Assembly: GCA_020251025.1 (NCBI GenBank)
Contig: JADCDI010000001.1
Span: forward strand, 62,001 to 126,000
Length of the DNA: 64,000 bases
DNA from: Rhodobacter sp.
GTDB lineage: Bacteria > Pseudomonadota > Alphaproteobacteria > Rhodobacterales > Rhodobacteraceae
Direction of reading: 5' to 3'
Under the pieces are notes generated by a model. It worked only from the letters and a program-made list of their open reading frames with translations, was not told where the DNA came from and did not search any database. Made by a program: the position numbers and the translations under genes. Below are positions 100-17,082 of this stretch, piece by piece (within the stretch, counting starts at the first letter, position 1; every line of letters begins with the position of its first letter).

Positions 100-143
100 T
101 GCCCCAATCCGGATTCGAACCGAAGACCCCTTCATTACGAATG
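100..143 (-). tRNA. 3' half of a disrupted tRNA-Thr(CGT): anticodon loop to discriminator base
   Basis: Joining the reverse complements of 17082-17045 and 134-100 gives GCCCCAATAGCTCAGCTGGTAGAGCACTTCATTCGTAATGAAGGGGTCTTCGGTTCGAATCCGGATTGGGGCA, a complete 73-nt cloverleaf with anticodon CGT. Confidence 0.9.
135..143. repeat. Left attachment core TTACGAATG (att site), direct repeat of 17045-17053
   Basis: 9-bp exact direct repeat lying at the anticodon loop of both tRNA halves, flanking the integrase-bearing island. Confidence 0.85.
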
Positions 144-180
144 TTATAGACTGTTATCTAAAACAATACGTTAGGTGCAT

Positions 181-202
181 TTTTGTATAGTTTGTTGTAT
201 AG
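181..202 (+). promoter_or_regulatory. Left arm-type integrase sites: TTTTGTATAG (181-190) and TGTTGTATAG (193-202)
   Basis: TGTTGTATAG is identical to both arms of the inverted repeat upstream of the integrase (16955-16964 and 16971-16980). Confidence 0.6.
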
Positions 203-272
203 TGAAGTTCCAGAAATAGACTGCAAGTACCTGAATTCACTTACATACTTGCAGCCTATTTCACGAAGTACA

Positions 273-677
273 TCATGCCTTGCGCCCGACAGCAAGCAGT
301 TCGTCGAGCTCACCCGATTTGGTCGCAGCGATCAGCGTATCGATGACTTTGACCAAACCGTCTTTGCCGACAGCCGCGATTGCGGGCTTGCCCTTCTCGA
401 ACTCGATGGGCTTCGTACCGTAGCGGACAACGAGGACGTAGTTGTTGTCACCCGTTTCCTGCCACCAGCGCCGCAGGCGTTTCGGGGTTTCCTTGCGGAC
501 CTTGGCTCCGGCTTCATCCTTGGCCCACTTGACCTGCATGACCGTGAAGGCCGGGTCAGTCAGCATCTGCTTTTGTTGCTCAAGTTGAGCAGCCAACTTT
601 TGGCGACGTTGCTCGCGGGGATCGGCCTTGTTCAGATTGGGCGCTTCGATGAACTTGAGTGTCTTAAGTACCGTCAT
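273..677 (-). CDS. DUF6641-like small protein (MTVLKTLKFIEAP...)
   Basis: ORF with internal ATG at 677; resembles small 'LKTLKF...RRWW...VRYG' proteins found on mobile elements. Confidence 0.55.
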   Translation of the reverse strand: MTVLKTLKFIEAPNLNKADPREQRRQKLAAQLEQQKQMLTDPAFTVMQVKWAKDEAGAKVRKETPKRLRRWWQETGDNNYVLVVRYGTKPIEFEKGKPAIAAVGKDGLVKVIDTLIAATKSGELDELLAVGRKA

Positions 678-950
678 GTTTGCCTCTCGCTGCATGTCAC
701 GCACATGCTTTGCGGCCAAACATCTGTAATTCCTAGACAATTCTCATGATAGCTACCTGAAAATCTGTCCCAACCACGAACAGCACGTTCATCATCTTAA
801 TGCGGTTCGTTGACAGCGATGCGTCTTGCGCATGCACAGCGCCGAAATTGGCTAGTCGCACCATGAGTAGCGGCCCATCCCCTGACACCCACTGTAGGCG
901 CTGCTGCGTGCGTCGTTGACGCCAACACAGCAGCAGTGGTTGTTCTTCGA

Positions 951-1259
951 TCAGATCGCCAAATCGTCCGGGGTCTTACCTGCCGCGATAGCCGCCGCGA
1001 ACCATGCGGGCTTGCGGCCACGCCCGCTCCAGGTCTCAGCCGAGTTAGCGGGGTTCGCATACTTGGCAGCAGCAGGTGCACGTTTGCGCGGTGCTTCAAC
1101 GCCTACAAGTTCTGCGAGGCTAAAACCCATGGCGCGAGCTTGGGCTTCCAGTTCCGCACGGGCCTTGGATTTCACACGATCTTCGAAGTTGGCGATGGCC
1201 GCTGCCACATCCTTGTGCAGCTTTTTAAGTTCAGCCAGCGAAAGCGAATTCAGGTCCAT
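951..1259 (-). CDS. H-NS/HvrA family nucleoid-associated protein (island copy)
   Basis: MDLNSLSLAELKKLHKDVAAAIANFEDR...KYANPANSAETWSGRGRKPAWFAAAIAAGKTPDDLAI; C-terminal DNA-binding motif nearly identical to the chromosomal copy at 29069-29383. Confidence 0.9.
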   Translation of the reverse strand: MDLNSLSLAELKKLHKDVAAAIANFEDRVKSKARAELEAQARAMGFSLAELVGVEAPRKRAPAAAKYANPANSAETWSGRGRKPAWFAAAIAAGKTPDDLAI

Positions 1260-1391
1260 GTCGTCTCCAAAGCACCCATGGTGCGTTTCCTTGTCTTCCT
1301 TGGAACGACATCCAGCCCATGTACAGCGCCCGTCGTTCGCCTTCACGCAGAAGTGGGCGCACGTTATGCGGTGGCGCTGCGTGTCGCCAAG

Positions 1392-2459
1392 TTAATACAG
1401 ATCGTCGGCGTTGTCCGCTGCCAACACGCTGATCAGTTCCGGGCTCAATCGTGCATCATAGCCCGGTGCCAGTTCCGTAATTCCGCGAAGGCGCAGCAAG
1501 TCCACGATGTCACGACGATGGCGCAGACTGACGGGGCGGTTGTCATAACCGTGGATGCCTTGCAGAACCCAGATGGCTTTTCCTGCCATGCGATGCTGCA
1601 CAAGTTCCACGATCAGGTCCGGGTTATCTTTGACCAAGTAAAACGCCACGCGGCCCATCGCCGCCCGCAGGACATGCGAAGACAGGCAATTGCGGAACCT
1701 CTGCCCGATCTCGGCGAACTGCCTGGCATCGTTGAGGGGCTTAAAGTCCGGATGATCTTCCAGTGGCCCCGCTGGCAACAGGTCGGCCTTGCGGGCCACC
1801 AACTTCGCTGCCCACAGTTGAAACCGCATCGACCTTGCGCCCTTGGACACTTGGATCAGGTCATCTGTGGTGATCGGGGTTGAAGACAGCCGCTCGACAT
1901 AACGCAGGATGGCATTGGCGGTGTCCGCAGTTGCTTCGCCATCAAACAGCTTTGCCAAGATCGGATGCACCAACTCGCGGTCAAGTCTTGCCAGTGCCGT
2001 TACCAGATCGGAGTTCACGGTCGAAGAATGACGCAATGCCAAGGCACGTTGGCGCTGATCCTCAATCGCCCCCGGCGTCAGCAGGGTCAAAAGCACATCG
2101 TAATGGCCGGGGTCTTCGAAAGGGTCGCCGCCCATCTTGCCCAGAGCCGTAGCCAGGCCCGGCATAGACCCGAACACCTTGCGCAGCACGGATCGGATGT
2201 CGTCATGGAAGAGATGATGCATGGATTGTCGCTGGTCGCCAGCACCAAGGGCAGCTTGGATTTCATCGAGTGATTTCACCGTCAGCACTGCGATCACCAC
2301 GGAACGCCGGAAATCGGTTGCCTTATGCAGTGACACAACGATGGGGTAGCATGTTTCCGCATCCAAGTTCAGAGCCATCTGCAACACCCAGCCCGACAAG
2401 GGTTCGGCGCGATGTGACAGCAAATGCTGCAACTGCCGTTCAAACGCTGCTTCATCCAT
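1392..2459 (-). CDS. Hypothetical protein (~355 aa)
   Basis: Long ORF with ATG at 2459 (MDEAAFERQLQHLL...); contains FAEIGQRFRNCLSSHV...GKAIWVLQGIHGYDN; no family recognised. Confidence 0.65.
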   Translation of the reverse strand: MDEAAFERQLQHLLSHRAEPLSGWVLQMALNLDAETCYPIVVSLHKATDFRRSVVIAVLTVKSLDEIQAALGAGDQRQSMHHLFHDDIRSVLRKVFGSMPGLATALGKMGGDPFEDPGHYDVLLTLLTPGAIEDQRQRALALRHSSTVNSDLVTALARLDRELVHPILAKLFDGEATADTANAILRYVERLSSTPITTDDLIQVSKGARSMRFQLWAAKLVARKADLLPAGPLEDHPDFKPLNDARQFAEIGQRFRNCLSSHVLRAAMGRVAFYLVKDNPDLIVELVQHRMAGKAIWVLQGIHGYDNRPVSLRHRRDIVDLLRLRGITELAPGYDARLSPELISVLAADNADDLY

Positions 2460-2531
2460 GGCCGTACCCCCGTGAACACAAGTCAGCACAGCTATGGTCA
2501 ACGATTTCTAAGGCCAACCGAAACGACAGGC

Positions 2532-2909
2532 TCATGGCGACACCCGGAACATGCTGGCTTGCCGGAAACCATCAACGACACCGGGGATGTAGCCGTAGTA
2601 GGGCAAACCTTCGGCCTTGCGCAAAGCGGCGTAGGTCGCTTCGATCTGCACAAGGATCAGGTCGCTGTCGAAATCCTGACAGTGCCGATCATGCAGGAAC
2701 AACACCACGTCGCACTGATACTGCCCGGCCCAGATCACCGCATCTTCCACGCTGATGTCCGTCTCGACATCATAGAAGGGCGATGCGTCAGACATGCCAC
2801 TGAAATCAGGATAGTCGGTGGCCAAGGCATATTCGCTCTGCACGACGCTGGCCGCCACATGCGCCCCGACAAAGCGATGGTCCCGGCAGTCAATGATGTT
2901 GGTGATCAT
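2532..2909 (-). CDS. Hypothetical protein (125 aa)
   Basis: ORF on the same strand as its neighbours, overlapping the end of the upstream ORF by 20 bp. Confidence 0.55.
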   Translation of the reverse strand: MITNIIDCRDHRFVGAHVAASVVQSEYALATDYPDFSGMSDASPFYDVETDISVEDAVIWAGQYQCDVVLFLHDRHCQDFDSDLILVQIEATYAALRKAEGLPYYGYIPGVVDGFRQASMFRVSP

Positions 2910-3210
2910 GCCCGACCTCCCTATTGCGCAAGCCTTCAGTCAGCAGTTCGTCAAGGCAGCGATTGGCTAGCGAACGAAACATCATCCCGGCATCGGTTCG
3001 GGGCGCAGCGTTATCGTTGGCCGCAGCATCCGCAGCCCGTAACAGGCTGACAGCACAAGTGGCCCAGACGACACAGCTTGGCTTCCGGCGCTTGGCCTTC
3101 AGCACCGTCAGATAACTTCGCTCGCGTCCAAGCCATTTCTCGCTGAACTCGGATCGGGTGCGCACGGCTCCCAATTGATGCACCTGATCATAGACAAAAT
3201 AAATCTGCAT
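2890..3210 (-). CDS. Small DNA-binding-like protein (DUF6626-like)
   Basis: MQIYFVYDQVHQLGAVRTRSEFSEKWLGRERSYLTVLKAKRRKPS resembles a compact HTH-type N-terminus. Confidence 0.45.
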   Translation of the reverse strand: MQIYFVYDQVHQLGAVRTRSEFSEKWLGRERSYLTVLKAKRRKPSCVVWATCAVSLLRAADAAANDNAAPRTDAGMMFRSLANRCLDELLTEGLRNREVGHDHQHH

Positions 3211-3249
3211 ATTTCACCTCAATAAACAAATCGATTGGGGCGCAGTTGT

Positions 3250-3286
3250 ATAAATACAATCAGTGCGACAATCGCATTGTATTTAT
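3250..3286. promoter_or_regulatory. Perfect 11-bp inverted repeat ATAAATACAAT-N15-ATTGTATTTAT (candidate operator)
   Basis: Read directly; located in the divergent region between the 2890-3210 (-) and 3246/3285 (+) genes. Confidence 0.6.
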
Positions 3287-3881
3287 GCAAGGCAAAATCA
3301 TGCAGGGAAAAATTATCCAAGATAAGGATCAGAAGCTGAACGCTATTCGCGCAGCACTCCAACGGGAACAAGCCCGAGATAACCTAAACAAACCGATTGA
3401 AACGCAGCTGATGCAATGGGTAAACGCTGGGCCAAAATGGGACATCGCGTTGACTTTGCACACGCCGTTGAAATTGCGCTATGACCATCAAGGTTATGAT
3501 GAGCTTTGGTTGGAACAGCAGGTCGCTGTGCTTTTCAATGTCTTGTCGAAAGTAATCTTCGCAGACATTCCAAAGAGGCAACGCCCTATGCTGCGTCGCC
3601 TGATTACGCTTGAGAAGGACATCTATGTGGGCTGGCATGCACATGGTGTTATTTCTACGCCTGAACATCTCGACGATGAAATACTGATACAGGCAATCAA
3701 AGAGGTCTGGGGCGGCATGATGAACCGTCATGCGAAAGAAGAATTCAAAGATCGGTTAGTTTGGTGCGAGCCCGTAAACGGCAACTATCAGCAGTACTGT
3801 GTGAAGGCCGCTCTTTCAGCTCAAGGCCGAAACCCGGTCGGTCAGTTTGGCACAATATCACTTCGAAATACTCATTTATGA
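3285..3881 (+). CDS. HUH-type Rep-like endonuclease (putative replication/mobilisation protein)
   Basis: Motif-I-like WDIALTLHTPL, HUH-like YVGWHAHGVIST, Tyr motif NYQQYCVKAA. The ORF track starts at 3246 (TTG); an ATG at 3285 is more plausible. Confidence 0.45.
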   Translation: MQGKIMQGKIIQDKDQKLNAIRAALQREQARDNLNKPIETQLMQWVNAGPKWDIALTLHTPLKLRYDHQGYDELWLEQQVAVLFNVLSKVIFADIPKRQRPMLRRLITLEKDIYVGWHAHGVISTPEHLDDEILIQAIKEVWGGMMNRHAKEEFKDRLVWCEPVNGNYQQYCVKAALSAQGRNPVGQFGTISLRNTHL

Positions 3882-3915
3882 TAGTGGGCGGTTGGTCCCT
3901 GAATTCCAACACATT

Positions 3916-4022
3916 CCTCAGTTAGCAAGGCGTTGAGGTTGAAGCGCAGTCAAAGAAACGTGTGAAGACACCAAGGACTGCGCTTCGTAATTTATGCGTC
4001 CCCCAGTTAGCGAGGCGCTGGG
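3916..4022 (+). repeat. Structured repeat region: two hairpins sharing CAGTTAGCRAGGCGYTG flanking an 11-bp inverted repeat
   Basis: CCTCA/TGAGG (3916-3938), GAAGCGCAGTC-N24-GACTGCGCTTC (3941-3986), CCCAG/CTGGG (4002-4022). Confidence 0.55.
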
Positions 4023-4237
4023 ATAAGGCGTTCAAGGAGCGGCATTTAGATGCTGCTGTAGCTGAAGGTTTGACCAAAGCATAAGAAGATCAAACACATC
4101 AGCAACGTCACTGACACTTCGACCAACCAAACAGATGTTGAGTTGCTCAAGCAGGAAAACGCTAGTGCAGGCAAGTGAGCACGATGAGTGCGATACAGCC
4201 AAGCTAGCAGAACGTGCTGTCAGGCACGGGCTCATAA

Positions 4238-5275
4238 CTAAGACAAATCATTCAGTCTGCGGCGAGCAGCAATTTCGTGCAATGGCGGGCGAACGTCCTG
4301 CCGCACAGGGGATAAATCGCTGAAGTCTTTTCCAAATCTATCTATTTTCCGCAACCAAGAACTGCTGAAGCGCAAATAGCTTGATGTCTTTGGGAAGTAG
4401 CGAAGCTTTCCAAATTCATTCATGGCATCAAAATCTTGGTCTACTTCCGTCACGGGAAACCTGCCATAAACAACGTACTTAATTATATTGTCCGCTGCAA
4501 TAATCCCTTCCGAACCAGCTTTTCGCTTCCCGCCACTCTTATATGATTGACCTTCTGGCCTTATAAAAACATCGTCGCTTCCTGCGAAAACAACTCCCGC
4601 CAAATCAATCAGCTGTTCGTTAGTTGGCAGCTTGCCATTTTCATTGAGATACTTAATTTGCGCTTTCTTGATCGCGAGATACTTGGCAAGAGCCGTTAGC
4701 TTATGATGACGAGGTTGGTATAAAGCCTTCGACTTATTGGAGCTCGCCCCAGCTTGCTCGCTGGCTAATTGATTTAGATAATCCTTTACTTGTTTGTGAA
4801 GGAGCTTTGGGTCCATATCCCTCTGCATCGAGATATAAATCCGATCCCCAGTATCATCGTGGTCCGAGAAAGGTTTAGTCTGTATCTTTGCATCGGGTTC
4901 TTCGTTTGGCTCAGTGAACAGTAGCCATCCCCGACTAATCCACCAGAGCCTGAAACTTTCGTCCGGCGAGACGCTGTATTCGTGGATATTTCCAAAGTCC
5001 TTGTAGAGCTCACGGAGGTGCAAGTGTTTTGGGTCGTTGTCCGGATACAGGCCGTTTCGCTTGCAGCAATCCAAGTAATCCGGGCTGAGGCGCAAGAATT
5101 CCCACCAGTAGTAGTACACGGATGACGTGAACTGGCTGAGGGCGTCGGGGAACTTGGGACCGTATCCACGTTCATCGATGGGCTTCTTCTTGCCCGTTCT
5201 GTCGAGATTGGTCTGGGGCGGTGCAAAACGATACACCAGATCTTTGCCGTCTGAAGTGATCTTTGAGTAGCTCAA
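4238..5275 (-). CDS. Hypothetical protein (345 aa) with YYYWWEFLRLSPDYLDCC motif
   Basis: Long ORF; the WWEFLR..PDY motif resembles the N-terminus of mobile-element proteins of the DUF6499 type. Confidence 0.6.
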   Translation of the reverse strand: MSYSKITSDGKDLVYRFAPPQTNLDRTGKKKPIDERGYGPKFPDALSQFTSSVYYYWWEFLRLSPDYLDCCKRNGLYPDNDPKHLHLRELYKDFGNIHEYSVSPDESFRLWWISRGWLLFTEPNEEPDAKIQTKPFSDHDDTGDRIYISMQRDMDPKLLHKQVKDYLNQLASEQAGASSNKSKALYQPRHHKLTALAKYLAIKKAQIKYLNENGKLPTNEQLIDLAGVVFAGSDDVFIRPEGQSYKSGGKRKAGSEGIIAADNIIKYVVYGRFPVTEVDQDFDAMNEFGKLRYFPKTSSYLRFSSSWLRKIDRFGKDFSDLSPVRQDVRPPLHEIAARRRLNDLS

Positions 5276-5413
5276 CTGCCTTTACCCCGTAGTCGCTGCG
5301 CTGTGTCGGATCATGAAAACGTCTTTCAAGGTCCGACATCGAATCACCTTCCCAACTCCTAGCAGGCAAGGTGGCGGCACAGTTCCGTGTCGTCTTGCCA
5401 TACGGAGGTTACC

Positions 5414-7318
5414 ATGGCGGAACGCAAGATGAAGGCCAAGACCGTGGCCAATACGACGGTCAATCTGGACGCCATGATGGCGAACGCTCGCAACGAGCTG
5501 CGCACGTCCAAGGACCGCGCGATGCACGCGGCGGCCCAGTGCTACATGATCTGGGTTGAGACCCAGTCGACGGCTGGCAAGGCGTGGTTCGAAAAGCAGG
5601 TCAAGCACGCCAATGAAGTCATCGATGCCTACAACAAGGGCGTGGAAAAGGATCGCAAGGAGGTGCGCGACTACCGCGCTGGCGCCTTGGACTCCAAGCA
5701 TGATGCGCTTTACGAAGGCAACGATGCGCATGCTCTGCAACTGAAGACCGACGCCATCGCCCGGATCAATGCCCTGGGCAAGCTGATCGACGAGAAGCGT
5801 GCGCCGAAGAAGAAGGTGAAGATCGAGAAGCCCAAGATGGCCAACGAATTCACCATGGTCGTGAAGCTGGTGTTTGGCTTCGACGAATCGGCGGATGCTT
5901 CGCTGGTGTCGCGCTACGCCACCGTCTGCGAGTTCATCCACGGCAAGTGCAGCTCGGGGACGCCGGTCGATGTGCCTTCCATCGTTGCCGAGCTCGAAGC
6001 TGCGGGCGGCTACGAAGTGTCGCTCCGCCATCAGGTCAAGGCCAAGCAGGCCCGCAAGTCCGGGGGCAATGCGGAAGAGGTCAAGACGCTGACGGCGAAG
6101 GCTAAGGAAGAAAACGAAGCGGCTGTGAAGGCGATGTCGCCGCTCAGCACCTTCGCGATCCCGGTCAAGACTAAGGCCGACGGGTACGCGGTCTTCCTGG
6201 CTCGCACCGATGGCGACACCGTTGAGATCGTGGGGGAAGCGCCGGTGACGGCGGCTCAGATCACCAAGATGGTCTCCTCCTTCGAGCCCCCGGCGATCTC
6301 GGCGGACCCGGCGGCGGAATTCGTGCGCCGTGTTCTGAACCTGGGGACGCTGGTGGGTGGCTTCGTGGGCAAGCCCGTCGATGGCAAGAAGGAGCGCAAG
6401 CTGGTGATGCGCCCGGGTGAGGGCGGCAAGACCCTGATGCTGTTGTCGCAGCAGGGTGGTTCGGCGAACGTGGTGGTTCATGCTGCTCCCCATGAAACCA
6501 CCAAGATCGGCACCGTGCCGGCCATGGTCGCGCTGCCGCATGAGTATCTGCAGGTGCTGACCAACCGCCTTGACGATCCGCTGTATCGCCGCTTCACCGC
6601 TCTCGCGCCCGATGCTGCGCCGCGCAACGCTGGCGGAGCCCTCGCGCAGAGCGTTCTGGGATGGCATCTGGAGAACCGTGCGCTGGTGCAGGCGAATGGC
6701 GCTCAGCTGAAGGAAACGCTGTTCTGGTCGAAGGTCGGCCCGAACAGCGTCTACAAGACGGTTGATGTCGAGACCGTGAAGGTCAAGACCCGCCTGATCG
6801 TGGGCCGCGATGCCCTCCTCTACTTCTGGGAGAAGGTTCTGTCGGGGGCTAAGTCCGGCAAGGCCCCCAACAAGAACGCCAAGACGGCGACCCTGAAGTA
6901 TGAAGATGGGGTGCTTGTTCTGAATATGCCCGCAAAGGGCGACGTCGATCACGATGTCATGCCCGAAGTGAATGCTGCCATCGAACTGGAATTCCGCCCC
7001 GGTGATCTGATCGCTCTGGTGGAAAAGCTGATGGGTCTGATGGTGGATCAGTTCGTCTTCGAATTTGACGAAGATGGCCTGCTGGCGGTCACCTGGGCGG
7101 ATAAGCTGGGCACTTATTCCATCTTCCAGCCGACGGTGATGGAAGGCGGGATCCTGAACCCCAAGCGCCTCGCCAAAGCGGGCCCGAAGCCTGCGGTGAA
7201 TATCTTGGCGGCGCTGGCTGCGAAGAACCAAGCGGCCACGGTCAGCCGCGTTGCGGCGGCGCAGTTCGCTGCCGCGACCACCAAACGTGCCCCGACCAAG
7301 AAGATCAAGGCGGCCTAA
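5414..7318 (+). CDS. Hypothetical protein (634 aa), possibly with a sliding-clamp-like C-terminal region
   Basis: RBS (ggaggt) then ATG at 5414; C-terminus ELEFRPGDLIALVEKLMGLMVDQFVFEFDEDGLLAVTWADKLGTYSIFQPT loosely resembles the beta-clamp terminal domain. Confidence 0.65.
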   Translation: MAERKMKAKTVANTTVNLDAMMANARNELRTSKDRAMHAAAQCYMIWVETQSTAGKAWFEKQVKHANEVIDAYNKGVEKDRKEVRDYRAGALDSKHDALYEGNDAHALQLKTDAIARINALGKLIDEKRAPKKKVKIEKPKMANEFTMVVKLVFGFDESADASLVSRYATVCEFIHGKCSSGTPVDVPSIVAELEAAGGYEVSLRHQVKAKQARKSGGNAEEVKTLTAKAKEENEAAVKAMSPLSTFAIPVKTKADGYAVFLARTDGDTVEIVGEAPVTAAQITKMVSSFEPPAISADPAAEFVRRVLNLGTLVGGFVGKPVDGKKERKLVMRPGEGGKTLMLLSQQGGSANVVVHAAPHETTKIGTVPAMVALPHEYLQVLTNRLDDPLYRRFTALAPDAAPRNAGGALAQSVLGWHLENRALVQANGAQLKETLFWSKVGPNSVYKTVDVETVKVKTRLIVGRDALLYFWEKVLSGAKSGKAPNKNAKTATLKYEDGVLVLNMPAKGDVDHDVMPEVNAAIELEFRPGDLIALVEKLMGLMVDQFVFEFDEDGLLAVTWADKLGTYSIFQPTVMEGGILNPKRLAKAGPKPAVNILAALAAKNQAATVSRVAAAQFAAATTKRAPTKKIKAA

Positions 7319-7401
7319 TCAAGATGACGGGGGAGCCTCAGGTTCCCCCGTCCATTCGCCGACCCAATCCCCACAAATTGAGCAACTTAATGGAGGTCCC
7401 C

Positions 7402-8718
7402 ATGGACAACTCGCTCGTCAAACTCGCCTCGAAAACTACCGAAACCATCCCGGGCCCGAAAGTCATCCCCAACGATCCGACCCCGCTGGATCAGGCGGTT
7501 TACATCCTCAGCGTCAGCCCGAAGTATGCTACGGACATCCACTTCGGCAACTGGAAGCGTGAACTGCCCTATGGTCTGCGCAATGAGGACCTTAACTTCC
7601 TCGACCCCAACAACCGGGTCTTCTATGCGCCCCATGTGATGAGCAGCGCCGGGCAGGCTCTGCGGATTAAGGATACCGGCATCATCACCGAACGTGATCG
7701 CGCCAGCACGTGTCTCTTGACCGATAGCAGCGGTTGGCAAATCGCCCAGCAGACCGGCAAGATCGACGACATTCGTGATAGGGGGGCCATCCTCGACTGG
7801 ATCGAAAAGCGGGCGGACATGTCGATGACCCTCGACATTCCGTCGGGCAATGTTGGCAAGCCGGACTATCCCTTCAAGACCATTTCGGCCTGCCTTGACC
7901 GCACGCTGGACAACCTGCGCTTCTTCGAAAAGGAGCACGTGCGCGGCAAAGTGACGTGGCTCAATGTGGTGCAGGCCAACAGCCATGGTTCCGGCTATGA
8001 ATGGTATGAAGCCGTTAAGCCTTTCGATTTCTGCGAGGGTTGGGCCATCGCGGGCAAGATGCGCAAGACCTTCACCTACGTTATCTCGCTGCTGCTTCGC
8101 ATGATGGAAGACGGCACCATCCAAAACAAGAAATGGGTTCACGTGCTCGGCACCAATGAACTGTGGGTTGCCGTCCTGCTCACGGCGGTGCAGCGCGGCC
8201 TGAATGCGAATGGCTGCGATCTTCGGATCAGCTTCGACACCTCCACCCCGTGCACCCTGATCCGCACCAACGGCGTGTTCAGCCTGCCGAACTTCAACGA
8301 TAAGGCGCTCCTGCTCCCCACGGAATATGCGCCCGACCACAAGCGCATGTTCCGCAGCCCTGTGCAGTGGCCCTGGCCGAGTGCCATCGGTAACAAGCTG
8401 ACTTTGGGCGACATCAACGTCGCGTCTTGGGGTAAATCGCCGTATTGCCGCGACAACCTCAGCAACACGCTGATGATGCTGCACAACTATGCGTCCTTGC
8501 GCGAAACCATCCTGCTCGCCAATCGGATCATCGATGCGCAGCAGGCTAGCAAGGATCACATCATCGCCCCGAAGCTGTCCAAGTGCGTTGGCATCGTGCG
8601 CCAGATCTTCGATGCTGGCCCGAAGAAAGGGCGCGAAATCCTCGAACAGAACCGCACCAAGTTCAACGGGCTGATTGACCGTAACTTCTATGAACCCGAC
8701 CGCAGCGAAGAAGACTGA
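7402..8718 (+). CDS. TGT-superfamily / DpdA-like (7-deazaguanine) transglycosylase, divergent
   Basis: RBS ggaggt and ATG at 7402. TGT-type motifs in order: LLTDSSGWQ (cf. LTDSGGFQ), MTLDIPSG, LNVVQANSHG (cf. IVQGG), GWAIAG (cf. YAIGG), HVLGT, SFDTSTPC (nucleophile Asp region), MMLHNYASL (cf. IHNL.YY). CxCxxC zinc ligands not evident. Confidence 0.7.
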   Translation: MDNSLVKLASKTTETIPGPKVIPNDPTPLDQAVYILSVSPKYATDIHFGNWKRELPYGLRNEDLNFLDPNNRVFYAPHVMSSAGQALRIKDTGIITERDRASTCLLTDSSGWQIAQQTGKIDDIRDRGAILDWIEKRADMSMTLDIPSGNVGKPDYPFKTISACLDRTLDNLRFFEKEHVRGKVTWLNVVQANSHGSGYEWYEAVKPFDFCEGWAIAGKMRKTFTYVISLLLRMMEDGTIQNKKWVHVLGTNELWVAVLLTAVQRGLNANGCDLRISFDTSTPCTLIRTNGVFSLPNFNDKALLLPTEYAPDHKRMFRSPVQWPWPSAIGNKLTLGDINVASWGKSPYCRDNLSNTLMMLHNYASLRETILLANRIIDAQQASKDHIIAPKLSKCVGIVRQIFDAGPKKGREILEQNRTKFNGLIDRNFYEPDRSEED

Positions 8719-8743
8719 TCCCACGGCAAAGACGCAGCCCAGG

Positions 8744-8773
8744 GCCCCGCTGGAAACGGCGGGGCTTCTTTTT
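8744..8773 (+). terminator. Rho-independent terminator after the TGT-like gene
   Basis: GCCCCGC-TGGAAACG-GCGGGGC followed by TTCTTTTT. Confidence 0.75.
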
Positions 8774-8959
8774 GTGTTGTGGGTAACTTCAGCCACTTAA
8801 GGAGCTCTCGCAGAAGCAGTGGCGACAAAGATTGAAAGCTGAAGCAATCGGTCTTGCATTTCAGTCGCAACTCAACGCTTAAGTTGCTCAACAAGTCCTG
8901 AGCCCAAACCACCTTACTTCATTGATTGTTGTCAGATTTCTTTTAGGGCGGGTCTATCT

Positions 8960-9082
8960 TCAGGTTCCGGAAACCAAAGGCCTTTCATGCCATCGCAAGC
9001 CATGCTGACCCTCGCTGTAGCACACTAACCAGACCGCACATTCACGCAATTCCAAAGGAAACTTGTTCGTCACCTTGCTCAT
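8960..9082 (-). pseudogene. Remnant of an IS3-family OrfA transposase N-terminus
   Basis: Reverse-strand reading MSKVTNKFPLELRECAVWLVCYSEGQHGLRWHERPLVSGT* resembles IS3-type OrfA (M..K.NKFSPEVRERAVRLV...GQHGSRW) and is then truncated. Confidence 0.65.
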
Positions 9083-9151
9083 GGTGCTCAATCCCTTCGT
9101 CCGTTGTGTCCACCGTGGCGACGGTGTAGTTCAGAGCACTCTTGGAGATGA

Positions 9152-9379
9152 ATGATGCCTGACCAGACTGTTGATGCAACGAACGTCCTTTGCCCATTGC
9201 CGGTAATCAAAGCCAAAAAGGCTCTGAGGCAAATGTCAAAGGGCCAAACGCTTCTAGTTCGCACGACCGACCCAGTGGCACTGATAGACATTCCGCATAT
9301 GTGCAAACAGTTTGCCTTCGAACTCATCGAAACTAAGGAACTCGAGGTTAGCCACGAGTTCCTCATCAGGAAGTCTTAA
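9152..9379 (+). CDS. TusA/SirA-family sulfur carrier protein
   Basis: MMPDQTVDATNVLCPLPVIKAKKALRQMSKGQTLLVRTTDPVALIDIPHMCKQ... with the CPxP motif and TTDP strand typical of TusA; stop is 1 nt from the dndE-fusion stop on the opposite strand. Confidence 0.88.
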   Translation: MMPDQTVDATNVLCPLPVIKAKKALRQMSKGQTLLVRTTDPVALIDIPHMCKQFAFELIETKELEVSHEFLIRKS

Positions 9380-9380
9380 C

Positions 9381-10925
9381 TCACTTCGCAGACCACGACT
9401 GTACCTTTTTCGCGGCACCGTCGCCTCGCCGTTTCACAAATGCTTGCCCAGTCGATAGGGTAGCGAGGTTAGCGCCTTTCCCAAGAATACGTGCTGCATT
9501 TCTCGAAGGCGCATTAGTGGAAAATGCCGCCACAAGGCCCATTTCGCTGAGGAAGTCGTCTTCTTCGCCAGAAAAATCGTCTGGACTTTGGGAAATTAGC
9601 ATCACGGCGCCGCCTTTTGAACGACTCATTCTTACCAAGCTAGACAGAGACGGGAGTTTGCTTCCAAGGATCCGATGCGCTTCATCTACCATCGCAATGA
9701 TGCGCATGCCTCGGCTTCCGTCCGCCGCGACAGGGGCGTCAGGAAGACTGTTCAAATATTGGTCAAGTGCGTCGAGAACCAAGTTTACAACAATACTTCT
9801 GCTTTCCTCGACGACATGAGGCGGGAGTTTGATAATCCACGAACGCTTAAAGAATTCCTCCGGCGGCATGGTTGGGACGAAGAGAGGGAAGCGGCAGACC
9901 TCTCGCGCAGCGGCGATTGCGCCGTCCTCCTTCATCTCACGTTCGCCATAAACGTTAAGCAACTCCTCGCGGAAATTGTCCAGTTCACAGGGGACGTTGC
10001 TACGCAGTGCACGTTCAGCAGCCTCGTAAACAGCATCTCTTTGCTTATCGCCAAGTTTTGCACCCTTCAGTCGCGAGAAGGACTCCCTAAAGCGAGAAGC
10101 AGCTTGAGACACCTCGATGTCATCCCTCGACCGGAGTGAAAGGACATCCAAGGGAACTGGAGACTTTGGTGGCTCAATGACCGTCGCTTCGAAAAGCTGG
10201 TCCAAATGGTAGCCACCACCAGCCTCGTCAGTTGCAAGGTCGCCCTTAAAGTCAAAAGCAATTATAGGCAGAGGCGCTTGTTTTCTTATCGATTTGAGAA
10301 CTGCAACCGCAGTTCGCGTCTTGCCGGAACCAACGCCACCCATGATGGCGCTATGCGGCGAACATCCTGGACCGTTGAGTGTCCATTCGAGTTCAGCACC
10401 CGTGTTTGCTTCTTTAGAGATTTCGCCGACGGGAACCGATAGAAGCCCCTCGTTCACAAACACATCAAGGCCGCCACCTTGCTCCAAAGATTTGAATTTT
10501 CCAGACAGCGGCAGTTCAGCGTGATCGACAAGCCGCCTTACAAATTTGAAAACATCTTCTCCAGATTGTTTCCAATCGGCATCAAGCAGTTCAAGACCAC
10601 GTTTCCAATGCGCTGCGACATTACCTGTTAACACCTTAATATCATACTCATTGGACGGGGAATGTTGGACAACAAGGGATACCCAGGTCATTAGCTGTGT
10701 TCCAGTACCGAACAGCGTATCTCCCTTAATGGCCTTTCCCCATTCGGCCTCGGCAGCTATCGGGTTGGGACTGCTAGTAAGCCCAAGAGACCGCGAAAGG
10801 GCCAACCTTGCTGGCAAGTAGCGTTTTTTCATTCCAAGGCGGCGCATGAATTCCGTATTTAGTTCGTCGGCCTTTTCATCAGTGCGGAAGTTCGCCCCGG
10901 CAACATCAACGATGTTAAATGTCAT
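9381..10925 (-). CDS. DndE-HerA-like fusion: N-terminal DndE-like domain plus C-terminal P-loop ATPase
   Basis: N-term RRLGMKKRYLPARLALSRSLGL...GDTLFG (DndE-like); Walker A MGGVGSGKTRTAVAV; Walker B-like IIAMVDEAHRIL; directly follows dndD. Confidence 0.8.
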   Translation of the reverse strand: MTFNIVDVAGANFRTDEKADELNTEFMRRLGMKKRYLPARLALSRSLGLTSSPNPIAAEAEWGKAIKGDTLFGTGTQLMTWVSLVVQHSPSNEYDIKVLTGNVAAHWKRGLELLDADWKQSGEDVFKFVRRLVDHAELPLSGKFKSLEQGGGLDVFVNEGLLSVPVGEISKEANTGAELEWTLNGPGCSPHSAIMGGVGSGKTRTAVAVLKSIRKQAPLPIIAFDFKGDLATDEAGGGYHLDQLFEATVIEPPKSPVPLDVLSLRSRDDIEVSQAASRFRESFSRLKGAKLGDKQRDAVYEAAERALRSNVPCELDNFREELLNVYGEREMKEDGAIAAAREVCRFPLFVPTMPPEEFFKRSWIIKLPPHVVEESRSIVVNLVLDALDQYLNSLPDAPVAADGSRGMRIIAMVDEAHRILGSKLPSLSSLVRMSRSKGGAVMLISQSPDDFSGEEDDFLSEMGLVAAFSTNAPSRNAARILGKGANLATLSTGQAFVKRRGDGAAKKVQSWSAK

Positions 10926-13000
10926 CAGTTAGCCCCATTTGAAAAATAGCCCTCTTTTACCGAGGACACACCAATGTCTCCTTCGCGTTCGAAGGTCACG
11001 AGGTATTTTTTCTGAACGTAGGGTTCGATTTCCGAAAGGTACTCACCGACGACCTCAGTATTTGTCGAAAGCAGAATGACCTGATGTCCTCTCTGAACAA
11101 GGTGATTAAGTACACCCTTTCTGTGTGCAACATCGAGTCGACCCAATGGCGTATCGATGACCATCGGGAACGAACGCTTCGACACCGAAGCAACGGCCGA
11201 AATGAGTGCCTGCGTAAAGATCTGCTTTTCTCCCGCAGACAAGTCATAGTTTCGCAGATCGATGCCCTGTGCGCTGAGGAGCCTGACTTCGCAGTCCTCA
11301 TTAATGTCGATCCGGTCAACCAGATCTTTCTTGTGTGCCATCGAATGATGGGCATCTGTCATGGCCTTGGCTATGGCCGAAATCTGGCTTGGAACAGCCT
11401 GTGCGACAATTGAATCAACCATCGCAGCTACTTTCAAAGCTCTACTGGCTCGACGCAAAGACGGTTTAGCTTGGTCCCAATGTCCCGAGAGTTTGGCCAA
11501 CTCCGCATTCTTCTTGGAGATATCTGCGTCGAAGGATGCAACTTCCCTCCGAAGTGCACCCAATTCTTGGTCAACTTCGCTTAGCCGCGTGTTAAGTGAA
11601 TTTAGCTCCGTCTTCTTCTTCTCGATATGTGGGGTGATGCTTTCTGTTCGGGTGATCTCCTTTTGGAGCCGTGAGGCAGCTTCTTCACTGCTCGAAATCC
11701 GGTCCAAGAGTTCAACGACGGTAGGCGCACCAAGTTCGTCAAGGTCATCGAGGGCATCGATCACCTTGAGACGCTCCATTTCGTTCAGATACCGATGAAT
11801 AATGTCTTTCGACACGTTCTCCGGCGGTGGATACCAGAGAGACTCCCAGGCTTCAGACGCGATGGTTACGACGGCACTTTCCTGATCAGGATTCAGGTTG
11901 GGATGAACTTTTTGAAGGGATAGTCGCACGGTATCGAGGAACGTAGAGAGGTTCGCATCGCCTTGTTTGCGTCCTGCCAACCACTTCTCTCTCACGATCT
12001 CCCCGCGCAGCTCGTCCTTAAGAAGTTCCCGCAGACCTTTCCCAGAGAGGGCTATAGCGATGTCCTGCGAAAGAAGCCGTTCGAGATGGGATTTGCCATC
12101 CTCAACGTCACGCTGTAGACGGTTCAGCCGTTCGAACTGTTCTTGAAACTGGGCTTGGGAACCCGCCCCAAAGGAAGCTAGTTCTCTGGTCAGCTTCTCG
12201 CGCTGCTCTTTGAGAGTAACCTGTTCTGGTTCGAGTTCCTCGATGCGTTCTTTCCGCTTCTTGGACTGAAAGTTCAGGTTGTCGAGTTCAAGTTCAAGGC
12301 GTTCCAACGTGTTGTCGTTTACGTTATTTACCTCGCCCTTCCGAACCCGAGCGTACTGCCGCAGGTCCTGAGCCAACTCCTTAAGTATCGGAATACCCAG
12401 CAAACCTTCAATACCAGAGCGGACCTGTGCAGCCATCTCACGTTCCGCAAAAGCGCTGACTTGCTCGCCATCAAACAGGAAGAATGCCGCAAGATAGTAT
12501 GGCAAGAAGCGCCTGGCTATGTAATCGCGATACCATTCGAGGTCATCGCCATCATCACCTGGTCCCGGTCCGACAATGGTCTTCGTTGGGCCTTCGTATA
12601 TTCTTACTTCCTCATCAGCTGGCTTTAGCTGGCCCTTTTCGCTGAAGTGCCAGATGCGCTGGATCTCGATTTCCTCGCCCTCATCGACAAAGGCTAGCTT
12701 GACGGAACAAGATGAGCGGCCGACGTCAATGGCACCGCTGTGCAGCGCCTTCTCGAGAAAGTTCCGGTATGAAGTCGCAAGACGTTGCCTGTCGTCTCCG
12801 GCAAACGGAGACCGAGCGACAAGAGGCATGCCACTTTTTCCGAACATACACAGGACGATTGCCTCGAATAGCGAGGTTTTTCCGAAGCCGTTCTGGGCAC
12901 CAATCAAGACAATGTTCTTGCCATTGTCCGGCGCAGGAAAATCAAAGTTGGCAAGAGCGTAAGCTTTCCAGTCGCGCAGGGAGATACTCTTCAGATACAA
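10925..13000 (-). CDS. dndD: DNA phosphorothioation protein DndD (SMC/RecN-like ATPase)
   Basis: MYLKSISLRDWKAYALANFDFPA...GAQNGFGKTSLFEAI (Walker A), coiled coil, LSAGEKQIFTQALISAVA signature; between the dndC and dndE homologs. Confidence 0.9.
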   Translation of the reverse strand: MYLKSISLRDWKAYALANFDFPAPDNGKNIVLIGAQNGFGKTSLFEAIVLCMFGKSGMPLVARSPFAGDDRQRLATSYRNFLEKALHSGAIDVGRSSCSVKLAFVDEGEEIEIQRIWHFSEKGQLKPADEEVRIYEGPTKTIVGPGPGDDGDDLEWYRDYIARRFLPYYLAAFFLFDGEQVSAFAEREMAAQVRSGIEGLLGIPILKELAQDLRQYARVRKGEVNNVNDNTLERLELELDNLNFQSKKRKERIEELEPEQVTLKEQREKLTRELASFGAGSQAQFQEQFERLNRLQRDVEDGKSHLERLLSQDIAIALSGKGLRELLKDELRGEIVREKWLAGRKQGDANLSTFLDTVRLSLQKVHPNLNPDQESAVVTIASEAWESLWYPPPENVSKDIIHRYLNEMERLKVIDALDDLDELGAPTVVELLDRISSSEEAASRLQKEITRTESITPHIEKKKTELNSLNTRLSEVDQELGALRREVASFDADISKKNAELAKLSGHWDQAKPSLRRASRALKVAAMVDSIVAQAVPSQISAIAKAMTDAHHSMAHKKDLVDRIDINEDCEVRLLSAQGIDLRNYDLSAGEKQIFTQALISAVASVSKRSFPMVIDTPLGRLDVAHRKGVLNHLVQRGHQVILLSTNTEVVGEYLSEIEPYVQKKYLVTFEREGDIGVSSVKEGYFSNGAN

Positions 13001-13002
13001 GT

Positions 13003-13203
13003 TCAGTCCCCCAGTTCAATTCGGTCGAGGATATCGTCAAAGGAGTCAAAAAGTCCCCTTTTTCTCTGCTTTCCAGTTTGCTCCACCTCAGCTTGGATGA
13101 GTTCAACGAACTCCGGAAAGCTGATCTTGTTTTCGATGCATTCCTCACGGACGAGCGAACGACCCTCTGGATTATCGAGAAGAACTACGACGTTCTGTGC
13201 CAT
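13003..13203 (-). CDS. DNA modification system-associated small protein (66 aa)
   Basis: Small ORF adjoining dndC and dndD with near-overlapping ends. Confidence 0.7.
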   Translation of the reverse strand: MAQNVVVLLDNPEGRSLVREECIENKISFPEFVELIQAEVEQTGKQRKRGLFDSFDDILDRIELGD

Positions 13204-14354
13204 TACTTGCCCTTCTTGATCGTGTGAACTGTAGCTTCCCGTGATTCATTCATCAGTTCGGCGGCCCAAATTTTACGAATTTCTTCAATCTCTTCCGGCG
13301 CAATTAGTTCAACTTCCAACTCATCCTGCATACTAACCAGTTTATCCAGAATTTCGTGCCTGGTACCCAATGTAAACGGACCAGGCACATAGGTTCCTGT
13401 CGATGTAATAGTAATAGAACCGTTTCTACGGCGTGCTTGTCGTTTGTCCGGATTATTCCGGATAGTCACTAGCCAATCCCTGAAGTCGATCAATGCCCCA
13501 AATTCGGAGAAACCTGACTCAACGAAGCCTTCTAGGCTCCTATCTTTATCCACAACGGTACATGTCCAGCAACCAAATCTCGAAGAAGAGGACCCACACG
13601 AGGGTGCGTCAGATTTTTGAGTAACGACCGGGCACTCTCCTCCTCCAGCATCTCTGTAAAGCTTAATGAGCTTCCGATGGTCGCCGCCCCATGGCGCATC
13701 ATGCTCAGCAAGATACTCCCACACGTCCTCTGTGGTTAGCTCGACAATAGGTCGGAAAACAAGGCATCCAGCTAGGTCGTTGTGGCGGTTCAGTCGTTCA
13801 CCATTGTCGTACCGCTTTACTGAAGCGGCACGAGTGGCCGACTCTGATCGACGCACTCCCAACAACAGGATGACGTTCTCTGCCTCAGCAATCTTGGACT
13901 TGATATATGTACTGGTGGGCTGGATTTTCATCCGGTCCGTACACCACCGAAAAGTCCGGTTTGGGGACGGGTATCCCCTTCCAATCAAGTTTACCCAGAA
14001 AGTCTGCGTAACATCCGGCTTTGTGATATCGGTATGGATGGGAAGGCGTAGCGCAGTTGCCGCACTCATAATCTGATCCAAGCTTGTCTTTACGTGCTGG
14101 ATCACAAGCGGGCTTTCGACCAGGGTATCGTTCGAAACGATGTGAACAGGTCGCATGCGCTTGCTCTTCGGAAGCTCGAGCAGAACTTTGAAAACCAAAT
14201 GAGCTACAAGGGTGCTGTCTTTGCCCCCAGAGTACCCGATCACCCAAGGATAGGAGTGGTCCTGCAGGTACTCGTTGCGGATCTCGCTCTCGATAACCGC
14301 CACAGCTTCCGCTAGTGACAGGTCAGAGAAATCATGCAGCCGCAGATCATCCAT
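13203..14354 (-). CDS. dndC: DNA phosphorothioation protein DndC (PAPS-reductase-like)
   Basis: YSGGKDSTLVAHL PP-loop, FRWCTDRMKI, PSCGSSSSRFGCWTC cysteine motif. Confidence 0.92.
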   Translation of the reverse strand: MDDLRLHDFSDLSLAEAVAVIESEIRNEYLQDHSYPWVIGYSGGKDSTLVAHLVFKVLLELPKSKRMRPVHIVSNDTLVESPLVIQHVKTSLDQIMSAATALRLPIHTDITKPDVTQTFWVNLIGRGYPSPNRTFRWCTDRMKIQPTSTYIKSKIAEAENVILLLGVRRSESATRAASVKRYDNGERLNRHNDLAGCLVFRPIVELTTEDVWEYLAEHDAPWGGDHRKLIKLYRDAGGGECPVVTQKSDAPSCGSSSSRFGCWTCTVVDKDRSLEGFVESGFSEFGALIDFRDWLVTIRNNPDKRQARRRNGSITITSTGTYVPGPFTLGTRHEILDKLVSMQDELEVELIAPEEIEEIRKIWAAELMNESREATVHTIKKGK

Positions 14355-14571
14355 TGTTTTCAGTCACTTCGTCAACTTTCCGAGATGCGCCTACGGCATC
14401 AGTAGACAAGTGTCGCAAGGCTAGATCGCCGGGTCAATAGATGAACGTCACAAAGCACTTCTGGCGGTGTTGCAATCGGGACGCACAACTAGCAGATGCC
14501 GGCTGCGGTTCGTAATCTTGAAGGCAGCGGCGGCTAAGCCCTCGGTAACCTCCCGGTCGCGGGCATTATCG

Positions 14572-15144
14572 TCACATCATCTCGACGGCCGCTCGCAGGA
14601 TGTTATCGTTGAGGTCAATATATTTTTGAGTTGTTCCGATACTACGGTGGCCAGCCAAAGCAGCAAGTACCCTCACGTTGACCCCCTTATGGGCAAGCGT
14701 GGTAATAAACGTTCTTCGGGTGCTGTGTGATGTGGCGCGGTCAAGACCCGCATCGTCGTACAGTTTGAGCATCAGTTGGCACAACCCGTTCGCCGAAAAT
14801 AGTTTGCCAGATTTGCTAGTTATAAAAGGAGCTGCCGCAACTTTGGCAACTTCCGGCAACTTGTCTACGTAGGCGCCCAGCTCGGCCTGCAACTGCGCAT
14901 TCAGCAACACCGTCCGTGCCTCGTTGCCCTTAGTCTGCGCCGCAGCGAGTTGGATGCTTGCACGCACGTCGCCTTCCGCAGTGAGCACGTCACCGATCCT
15001 GAGGGCAGCAATTTCGCCAATGCGCATCCCAGCTAGGTAGCCCAGCATGAAAACGCAGCGGTTGCGATCAGGGAATGCCGTCTGCTTGCAGTAAAGGAGC
15101 ACCCGCTTCGCGTCGCGCTCTGTGAGGACCGGAGCCTGCTTCAT
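14572..15144 (-). CDS. Minimal tyrosine recombinase (190 aa, catalytic domain only)
   Basis: AGMRIGEIAAL (R), SHSTRRTFITTLAHKG (HxxR), LAGHRSIGTTQKYI (H...Y). Confidence 0.85.
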   Translation of the reverse strand: MKQAPVLTERDAKRVLLYCKQTAFPDRNRCVFMLGYLAGMRIGEIAALRIGDVLTAEGDVRASIQLAAAQTKGNEARTVLLNAQLQAELGAYVDKLPEVAKVAAAPFITSKSGKLFSANGLCQLMLKLYDDAGLDRATSHSTRRTFITTLAHKGVNVRVLAALAGHRSIGTTQKYIDLNDNILRAAVEMM

Positions 15145-15485
15145 CTTGCCCCTCTTGGTGCATGAAATGTTGTATTATAACATGTTTCCTGAACCAAAGG
15201 AGGACAACCGGAGATCTTCGAAAAAATCGCCCAATATCCTCAGTGACTTAAGCTCTTGGTTCAGAAAATGTTAATTATATGAGCCAGCGTCGTATTTTTG
15301 ATTTTCCGTCGCCGTGTGCACGCAACCTGTTTAGACCAGATCGGGCACCCTGGAAGACGCATTTTGCTAACTGATTTCAGCTCGACACGGGCTATCGCTA
15401 ACCAGACCTGCTGACTTTGCATAGAGGCCGCTCGAAATCAAAAAGGGTTAGCCGCAAACCGCCGCTAACCCTCTGAATTTACTGG

Positions 15486-15558
15486 TGCCGCTGAAGGGAC
15501 TCGAACCCCCGACCCCATCATTACGAATGACGTGCTCTACCAGCTGAGCTACAGCGGC
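15486..15558 (-). tRNA. tRNA-Thr(CGT), intact, island-borne, followed by an encoded CCA (15483-15485)
   Basis: Reverse complement GCCGCTGTAGCTCAGCTGGTAGAGCACGTCATTCGTAATGATGGGGTCGGGGGTTCGAGTCCCTTCAGCGGCA-CCA folds as a full cloverleaf; anticodon loop TTCGTAA. Confidence 0.95.
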
Positions 15559-15633
15559 GACGAGGCGTCTCCTACAACATGATGACGGCGATGCCTAGAC
15601 CTGTCATGCCTTCTCGGCGGCATTTTTCTTCGC

Positions 15634-16947
15634 TTAGGCGGCATCTTCCTCGTCATCGATGACGATCTTTGGCTCCTTTGCCTTGCGAGGCCGCCGAACG
15701 CTGTGCAGGAGGTCCACATTCATCTCTGCGGTCAGGGGCTTGGCGTAGAATCGGTCGATCATCTCCACCGAGGTGCGGGCGTTACGTGCCAGCGTCAGCG
15801 TGTCGAGGTTCTTGGCGTTCAGCAGTCGCAGCATGATCGATGTGTGCCGGAGGCTGTACAACGAACGTGTCTGTCCGTGCTCATCTGTCCGCAATCCGGC
15901 TTCAATCAGGACCTGCTCGAACTGCCGCTGGAGCGACCGCAAGGCATAGTCACGTTGCTTCTCGCCGCGTTCAGGCTGGAAGACATAATCATCCGGCTTG
16001 CCGTACCCTTCAGCGACCTGACGTGCCTTGATCTTCTCATATGTGTTCACCGCACTCGGTAGGGAGATCATCGGGTTGGAGTGCCCTTTAGTCTTTGCGT
16101 GCGTCAGCCGCAGGTAAGTTGCGTCCTTGCGAACGACGGCGACGTCTTTGTGTTTGAGCACCTTAATGTCCGTAGGGCGTATGAACGTGTTCGTCATGAA
16201 CAGGATCAGATCATACAGCTCCTGCGTCACTGGGATGTTACGCAGTGGAACACCTTTCTGGGTCTTCTGCTTGAACGACTTGCCGATGCATCGGCGGGCT
16301 GTGCGTTGAAGGGTATCGTATTGCTTGGAATTGAACCAAGGACGGGCGATGTCTTCCGTCTTAATCGTTGGAAACGCCGGAAGCGAAGCGATCACACCAA
16401 TCCGATGCCCGTGTTTGAACACGGTTTTCAGGTGCGACACATGCACCTTCAGGCTGCTCTTGGCCAGATTACGATCTTCCCTCAGCTTACTCACATAGGC
16501 TGACATGTCTGCATAGGTGATGTCCCCCAAGCGCATGTTGCCAAATGCTGGAATGAGATCTTTCTCAAGCCTAGCAGCGTCATAGTTGAACTTCGTGTGC
16601 GAGATTTCCGCCCTGACGAGCCTGGCCTTGTTGTCCTGCTGCAGACTGCGGGCAACCAGTTCAAAGCTGCTTTCGCGGTTCGCGGGCAGCATCTTCATCT
16701 TAAGTAACTGAACTTCGCCGAAGTACTTCTTGGCGAACCTAACAGCTTCCTGCTTGTGTGTCGTCTTTGTGCTGCGCCGGTAGATCTTCCCTTCTTCGTA
16801 CATGCGCACGTACCAGAACGGTGAGGCTTCCATCTGGTAGATAGTGAGTGTGTTATAGCCAGGTATCTTTGTCAGCGTGCCGGGCTTTGGGGCGGTCCGG
16901 TCCTGTTTTGTCATCTCGACCCTCACAGATGAGCCCAGTTTGTGCAC
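15634..16947 (-). CDS. Tyrosine-type site-specific integrase of the island
   Basis: C-terminal catalytic motifs (ITQELYDLILFMTNTFIRPTDIKVL, SLYSLRHTSIMLRLL, DRFYAKPL); adjacent to the right att core. Start may be 16914. Confidence 0.9.
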   Translation of the reverse strand: MHKLGSSVRVEMTKQDRTAPKPGTLTKIPGYNTLTIYQMEASPFWYVRMYEEGKIYRRSTKTTHKQEAVRFAKKYFGEVQLLKMKMLPANRESSFELVARSLQQDNKARLVRAEISHTKFNYDAARLEKDLIPAFGNMRLGDITYADMSAYVSKLREDRNLAKSSLKVHVSHLKTVFKHGHRIGVIASLPAFPTIKTEDIARPWFNSKQYDTLQRTARRCIGKSFKQKTQKGVPLRNIPVTQELYDLILFMTNTFIRPTDIKVLKHKDVAVVRKDATYLRLTHAKTKGHSNPMISLPSAVNTYEKIKARQVAEGYGKPDDYVFQPERGEKQRDYALRSLQRQFEQVLIEAGLRTDEHGQTRSLYSLRHTSIMLRLLNAKNLDTLTLARNARTSVEMIDRFYAKPLTAEMNVDLLHSVRRPRKAKEPKIVIDDEEDAA

Positions 16948-16954
16948 CAGAAGC

Positions 16955-16980
16955 TGTTGTATAGCGATTTCTATACAACA
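16955..16980. promoter_or_regulatory. Right arm-type integrase sites: inverted repeat TGTTGTATAG-N6-CTATACAACA
   Basis: Perfect 10-bp inverted repeat immediately upstream of the integrase; same decamer at the left end (193-202). Confidence 0.65.
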
Positions 16981-17044
16981 AATTTCTAAAAAATACCCAT
17001 ATTTTATTGGATATTTCTGCTATTTTTGGGATTTGCGCTGAGCT

Positions 17045-17053
17045 TTACGAATG
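17045..17053. repeat. Right attachment core TTACGAATG (att site)
   Basis: Direct repeat of 135-143. Confidence 0.85.
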
Positions 17054-17082
17054 AAGTGCTCTACCAGCTGAGCTATTGGGGC
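17045..17082 (-). tRNA. 5' half of the disrupted tRNA-Thr(CGT): acceptor 5' strand, D-arm, anticodon loop
   Basis: Reverse complement GCCCCAATAGCTCAGCTGGTAGAGCACTTCATTCGTAA; its acceptor strand GCCCCAA pairs with TTGGGGC at 101-107. Confidence 0.9.

Follow-up and report, generated by a model that had tools for sequence, protein, structure and literature searches.

A genomic island in Rhodobacter sp. splits the tRNA-Thr(CGT) gene of its host and carries a complete tRNA-Thr(CGT) beside its integrase

In the window, as we call the whole 64-kb stretch of Rhodobacter sp. DNA analysed here, a tRNA-Thr(CGT) gene is split by an integrated island, and a complete tRNA-Thr(CGT) stands next to the island's own integrase. 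What is this second tRNA for, and where did the two genes come from? The 5′ half of the split gene is found ~100 bp upstream of the integrase start and the 3′ half at the other end of the island (Table 1), and the two halves have only the 9-bp core TTACGAATG in common (CATTCGTAA on the minus strand), situated inside the anticodon loop. Joining the island flanks by script produced one 74-nt tRNA-Thr(CGT) that has no CCA (GGGGCA is followed by CGC). These joined flanks agree with the uninterrupted locus L050 of G004, a genome of the same genus without the island, at 720 of 733 bases and with no gap; thus, the island is 16,910 bp long and destroys its target. Neither junction (100–143 and 17045–17082) holds a complete tRNA, as checked with ARAGORN and Rfam, and the split gene together with the empty site identifies a tRNA gene as the recombination target of the integrase. 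The GC content is 0.54 for the island versus 0.63–0.65 for the chromosome. Both island ends also carry TTGTATAG repeats, with five matches in the window against 0.11 expected and four of these five at the island ends. Since their geometry recurs in two related elements, L169 and L170, and so at both ends of three elements in all, these repeats are probably arm-type integrase sites.

Table 1. Position of the island, its att sites, its tRNA and its annotated genes within the window
Feature	Position	Strand	Details	Basis
Integrated island	135..17044	.	16,910 bp including one core copy	att cores and empty site
attL, 3′ half of split tRNA-Thr(CGT)	100..143	−	core TTACGAATG at 135–143	sequence; joined-flank test vs L050
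Two direct TTGTATAG repeats near attL	183..202	+	at 183 and 195, 12 bp apart; putative arm-type integrase sites	
DndE domain, then HerA-like ATPase	9381..10925	−		Pfam DndE, DUF87
DndD/PbeC-like ATPase	10925..13000	−		PADLOC PbeC E=4e-284, DndD E=6e-93
DndC-like PAPS-reductase protein	13203..14354	−		PADLOC DndC E=2e-129
Terminator-like hairpin and T run	15438..15482	−	directly 3′ of island tRNA	fold −21.2 kcal/mol, z −5.2
Complete tRNA-Thr(CGT) of island	15483..15558	−	CCA encoded	ARAGORN; Rfam RF00005 67 bits, E=2.1e-12
Weak promoter-like site	15579..15607	−	ATGACA-17-CATCAT, upstream of island tRNA	1 found vs 0.9 expected
Tyrosine integrase P0001	15634..16947	−	437 aa; ~50–67% homologs at same kind of site	PHROG integrase E=2.3e-22
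Inverted TTGTATAG pair	16957..16978	.	at 16957 and 16971, between attR and integrase start; putative arm-type sites	
attR, 5′ half of split tRNA-Thr(CGT)	17045..17082	−	core TTACGAATG at 17045–17053	sequence; joined-flank test vs L050

The complete tRNA, hereafter the spare, is the only complete tRNA that ARAGORN finds in the window, and 75 bp separate it from the integrase stop (15634). An earlier note on this DNA had described an intact tRNA-Thr(CGT) at about this distance, which the ARAGORN and Rfam calls confirm, and had read it as a compensation module for an anticodon-loop att site, a proposal that is well supported by the spare being the only intact copy and by the pairing seen in 10 of 10 homologs (below). 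The differences between native and island tRNA that it had pointed out, in the acceptor stem, the T arm and the CCA (encoded in the island copy, absent from the native gene), are all seen, and the anticodon stem differs as well. The anticodon loop, TTCGTAA, is the same in the island tRNA and in the host type. By type, the spare is the tRNA-Thr(CGT) common in the family, and several relatives have exactly this sequence as their host gene. The promoter-like site upstream of it is not evidence by itself, since the number found hardly exceeds the number expected (Table 1).

A genome-wide count of tRNA-Thr(CGT) genes, chosen beforehand as a possible refuter, gave one intact gene among the 38 tRNA genes of the window genome (99.99% complete, 131 contigs), namely that of the island, which alone has the CGT anticodon. 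Exactly one intact tRNA-Thr(CGT) was found in each of the seven genus members (7/7). ACG had been supposed to be a frequent threonine codon, and it does account for 32.5% of the Thr codons in sampled chromosomal ORFs. tRNA-Thr(TGT) and tRNA-Thr(GGT) are also present in this genome; since tRNA-Thr(TGT) might read ACG by wobble without a CGT tRNA, compensation by the spare may raise fitness rather than being essential.

A scan of 85,488 species genomes for homologs of the integrase led to 20 loci. In every one of the 10 homologs that are ~50–67% identical and have readable downstream sequence, a complete tRNA-Thr(CGT) lies 19–118 bp downstream of the integrase gene on the same strand. The absence of a linked tRNA from homologs had been named as something that could overturn the compensation proposal, and at ~50% identity or more the linked gene was present in 10 of 10. 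The carriers are spread over Rhodobacteraceae, four Sphingorhabdus/Sphingomonadaceae, Porphyrobacter, two Erythrobacter, a betaproteobacterial MAG and a Bacteroidetes MAG. Upstream of the integrase, 9 of the 10 homologs have a tRNA-Thr(CGT) 5′ half that breaks off within the anticodon loop, as do 10 of 11 loci when Methylocystis L120 is included; the exception is the Bacteroidetes contig, which starts inside the integrase gene, and the L120 contig stops inside it. The tRNA-carrying integrases form a single clade (12 rows, support 98/98), the only unmarked member of which is the truncated L120. The tRNA-Thr(CGT) linked to the integrase in the Bacteroidetes contig (L129) stands apart from the other linked copies by its unusually high AT content and its reduced D arm.

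Could the tRNA instead be a passenger that aids translation of the island's genes, its place beside the integrase being incidental? Many mobile elements carry tRNAs and the GC content of the island is below that of the chromosome, but the island uses ACG no more heavily than the chromosome does (30.5% of its Thr codons, versus 32.5% in sampled chromosomal ORFs), the linked tRNA is the isoacceptor broken by the integrase in 10 of 10 cases, and the same isoacceptor match is found in a second integrase class described below. We therefore consider the passenger reading very unlikely.

Replacement of the broken gene by the spare is also in keeping with the far ends of the related elements. Five hosts (G623, G625, G626, G627 and G628) have a 3′ half that matches, located either at the far end or within the same genome, and where the tRNA types differ, these far 3′ halves match the 5′ half and not the spare. 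Complete related elements measure ~14.3 and 17.3 kb. Two observations count against replacement. In G623, the spare is a better pairing partner than the 5′ half for the acceptor stem of the 3′ half, and therefore this pair of halves has drifted or was converted. One homolog host, MAG G624, has an additional intact tRNA-Thr(CGT) on a small contig. Within the Sphingorhabdus group, 97%-identical integrases carry differing tRNA variants; thus, the tRNA is exchangeable while its pairing with the integrase stays.

The local order of 5′ half, integrase and full tRNA would also be expected from conventional restoration, with integrase and full tRNA as a small element, the full tRNA as the restored junction and the 5′ fragment displaced upstream, and islands of such a '5′ fragment' class do exist (n=159 in Islander, PMC4383910). 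Nevertheless, the full tRNA is unlike either half in its acceptor and anticodon stems and its T arm, the distant halves fit each other and rebuild a tRNA as at the empty site L050, and in the complete elements L169 and L170 the 3′ half lies 12.7–15.8 kb past the full tRNA, so that we give restoration hardly any credence. The empty site, together with the far-off 3′ halves, ruled out a mini-element consisting of integrase and full tRNA as the whole element.

Among the island ORFs scanned against PHROGs, the matches were confined to integrases and a single family whose function is unknown, with no phage structural gene, and on this evidence the island is not a temperate phage. Neither viral contigs nor phages nor plasmids contained a close relative of the window integrase, which thus has no known phage form, and an order-wide integrase search returned only the query itself at E<1e-40. 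A DNA-sulfur-modification-like gene set occupies 9381–14354; no DndB-like match was obtained among the island ORFs scanned. Beside the island tRNA, at 14572–15144, there is another ORF (190 aa) that resembles an integrase; it has a phage-integrase catalytic domain but lacks an N-terminal domain. The Dnd-like defence cargo would suit a further reading, in which the tRNA would serve as a decoy or reserve against anticodon nucleases of host or phage and not as a replacement, and phage tRNAs with altered anticodon loops do evade such nucleases (as cited in PMC10865867). However, the anticodon loop of the island tRNA is unchanged from the host type, and in all of the homologs the isoacceptor is that of attB, which leaves the decoy reading with next to no likelihood.

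As for the replacement mechanism, the tyrosine integrase would recombine the 9-bp core that the host tRNA-Thr(CGT) gene has in its anticodon loop. With so short a core, attP cannot restore the gene, and integration therefore destroys it, as the two halves and the empty site show. The spare would then supply the lost function in trans, as suggested by its being intact, the only copy and conserved beside the integrase. It may be transcribed from a promoter of its own or by read-through from the tRNA promoter that now lies upstream of the integrase gene, and would be charged with threonine, relieving the loss. An integrant that lost the spare would probably pay a cost, and this cost would stabilise the island. 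Since the spare retains the TTCGTAA anticodon-loop sequence, it would itself be the next potential integration target.

That a second kind of element uses the same gene became apparent in G028, from another genus of the same family, where the family-common type of tRNA-Thr(CGT) is split by a 15-kb element whose own complete tRNA, of the other type, is situated near the end opposite to its integrase. This integrase belongs to a different lineage than that of the window. Homologs of it at 50–97% identity in G150, G152 and G109 have the same split 5′ half, and in G152 and G109, whose contigs extend far enough, a complete tRNA-Thr(CGT) is located 100–130 bp from the 3′ half; splitting of tRNA-Thr(CGT) with a full copy at the other end is thus seen in G028, G109 and G152. 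For the second-class integrase, phages gave no match, and viral contigs a single relative at 41%. Three ~14–15-kb elements with terminase-like genes (L164, L165 and L089) sit in tRNA-Thr(CGT) together with a spare tRNA, and L164 has a portal gene. Because of these terminase-like genes and the one portal gene, the second-class elements look like a phage-satellite-like family that uses tRNA replacement. In the G028 element, the integrase frame is broken near the catalytic part by a short tandem duplication (L089:14726–15886), which reflects either true inactivation or a mistake in the assembly.

The second class bears directly on the origin of the gene that the window island has split. This gene (GCCCCAA..CTTCA-TTCGTAA-TGAAG) and the spare of the G109 element agree in all of their 74 nt. 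The other, common type (..GTCA-TTCGTAA-TGAT) is found in most family genomes and in the same-genus genomes G002 and G003, where it adjoins hemY; in G000, G001, G004 and G005, a CTTCA-type tRNA is located between glmS and hemY. Beside the CTTCA-type tRNA, a decayed common-type 3′ half has survived in G005 and, less clearly, in G001, and beyond this half the sequence aligns with the left end of second-class elements; for the G001 remnant, the tRNA part alone scores 16, slightly above the 14 of shuffles. From these sequence comparisons, the tRNA split in the window is most likely the spare brought by an earlier second-class element. The earlier note had called it the native gene; that it is a real gene and is split holds good, but it is probably not ancestral, being the spare of an earlier element. 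The decayed remnants in the sister genomes place the second class at this locus in the past, so that the host gene would have been replaced twice, and the most economical history runs from the common tRNA to the spare of a second-class element, of which hardly more than this tRNA was left after decay, and on to the spare of the window island.

It could also be that replacement is real but happened once, the split type having been vertically inherited and a copy of it captured by second-class elements, which would agree with G001, G004 and G005, none with a complete element, having the CTTCA type as their sole intact copy. The decayed common-type half and second-class left-end sequence directly beside it in G005 and G001, the common type adjoining hemY in G002 and G003, and the identical 74-nt gene on the G109 element all argue against a single replacement, and we regard it as unlikely. 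Taken together, we are highly confident that the gene is lost through recombination at the core, that the spare replaces it in trans and that the host gene has undergone two or more replacements. With a lesser degree of confidence, we favour a wider picture in which two unrelated element families compete for tRNA-Thr(CGT), each destroying the copy then present and putting its own in place, and hand the host gene from element to element, so that tRNAs turn over horizontally at a fixed locus. If this is true, the host would depend on the element through the spare, and after decay of the element only the tRNA would remain, as the next target. Between the split tRNA and hemY (17155–19017), there are three ORFs without a Pfam match that are also present in G004, and not at the same place in G001 or G005; they are possibly cargo left by the earlier element.

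The principle of tRNA replacement is already known. In the tRNA-dependent lysogeny of the actinobacteriophages Fionnbharth, cluster L, Gaia and BrutonGaster (Guerrero-Bustamante and Hatfull 2024, PMC10865867), the requirement for the phage tRNA (isotypes Lys, Ile2 and Leu) has been proven by deletion. As in the window island, a tyrosine integrase acts on an attB in a tRNA gene, the tRNA is not rebuilt at the junctions, the element encodes a tRNA of the disrupted isotype, and the common core is short (8–17 bp in the phages, PMC10865867, versus 9 bp here); in Gaia, the tRNA is also downstream of the integrase (PMC10865867). In contrast to these phages, the window island is a non-phage element with Dnd-like cargo and tRNA-Thr(CGT), its spare has a predicted role, and it shows a fixed integrase-tRNA cassette across bacterial classes and serial replacement at one locus. 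The same study cites Lj965 as a likely case and calls for further investigation outside Actinobacteriophages (PMC10865867). This Lactobacillus johnsonii prophage resembles the island in that the tRNA is not rebuilt and a cognate tRNA is present in the prophage, and differs in being a single case of a Firmicutes phage, as cited in that study (PMC10865867). For Sinorhizobium meliloti prophages like Mesorhizobium phage vB_MloP_Lo5R7ANS, the accessible text of PMC11476347 describes inactivation of tRNA-Leu(UAG) and its replacement by the same isoacceptor, again in Alphaproteobacteria and with an element tRNA of the same isoacceptor type, but it concerns a prophage and a different tRNA, and that text contains no integrase-family survey or repeated replacement (PMC11476347). 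Classical tDNA islands share the tyrosine integrase and the anticodon-loop site in a tRNA gene; there, the attP tDNA fragment restores the gene, whereas the window island has no restoration (Islander, PMC4383910).

What is new here is the non-phage island, the two convergent integrase lineages and the serial replacement; no earlier report of repeated replacement at one locus was found in the papers searched, which took in only a small part of the subscription literature. These findings would extend tRNA-dependent integration beyond phages to an island with defence cargo and to satellite-like proteobacterial elements, with the integrase-tRNA pair as a conserved cassette spanning several classes on which two integrase lineages converge, and would provide a concrete mechanism for repeated horizontal swapping of a bacterial tRNA gene. 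Any host dependence so created may work like a tRNA-based addiction system. Such islands also do not have the restored target gene, the signature needed by restoration-based island finders.

Beyond this clade, the tRNA partner changes. Among the nearest relatives of the clade (36–42% identity), L130, L131 and L135 are found beside a complete tRNA-Val(CAC), and L133 has a complete tRNA-Thr(CGT) together with a displaced 3′ half, which is the classical restoring arrangement. Family homologs at 29–34% mostly have tRNA-Phe, other complete tRNAs or none nearby, and the more distant homologs in the 85,488-genome scan show no conserved pairing of integrase and tRNA-Thr(CGT). In the second class, 44% homologs of the integrase adjoin a complete tRNA-Thr(TGT). 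One 39% homolog of the window integrase, L132 from Zwartia vadi, is located beside a tRNA-Val(CAC) that is split in the anticodon loop, on a contig that ends 4.4 kb further on, and the same genome has a complete tRNA-Val(CAC) on an unlinked 1.7-kb contig; L132 is possibly a tRNA-Val version of the same strategy.
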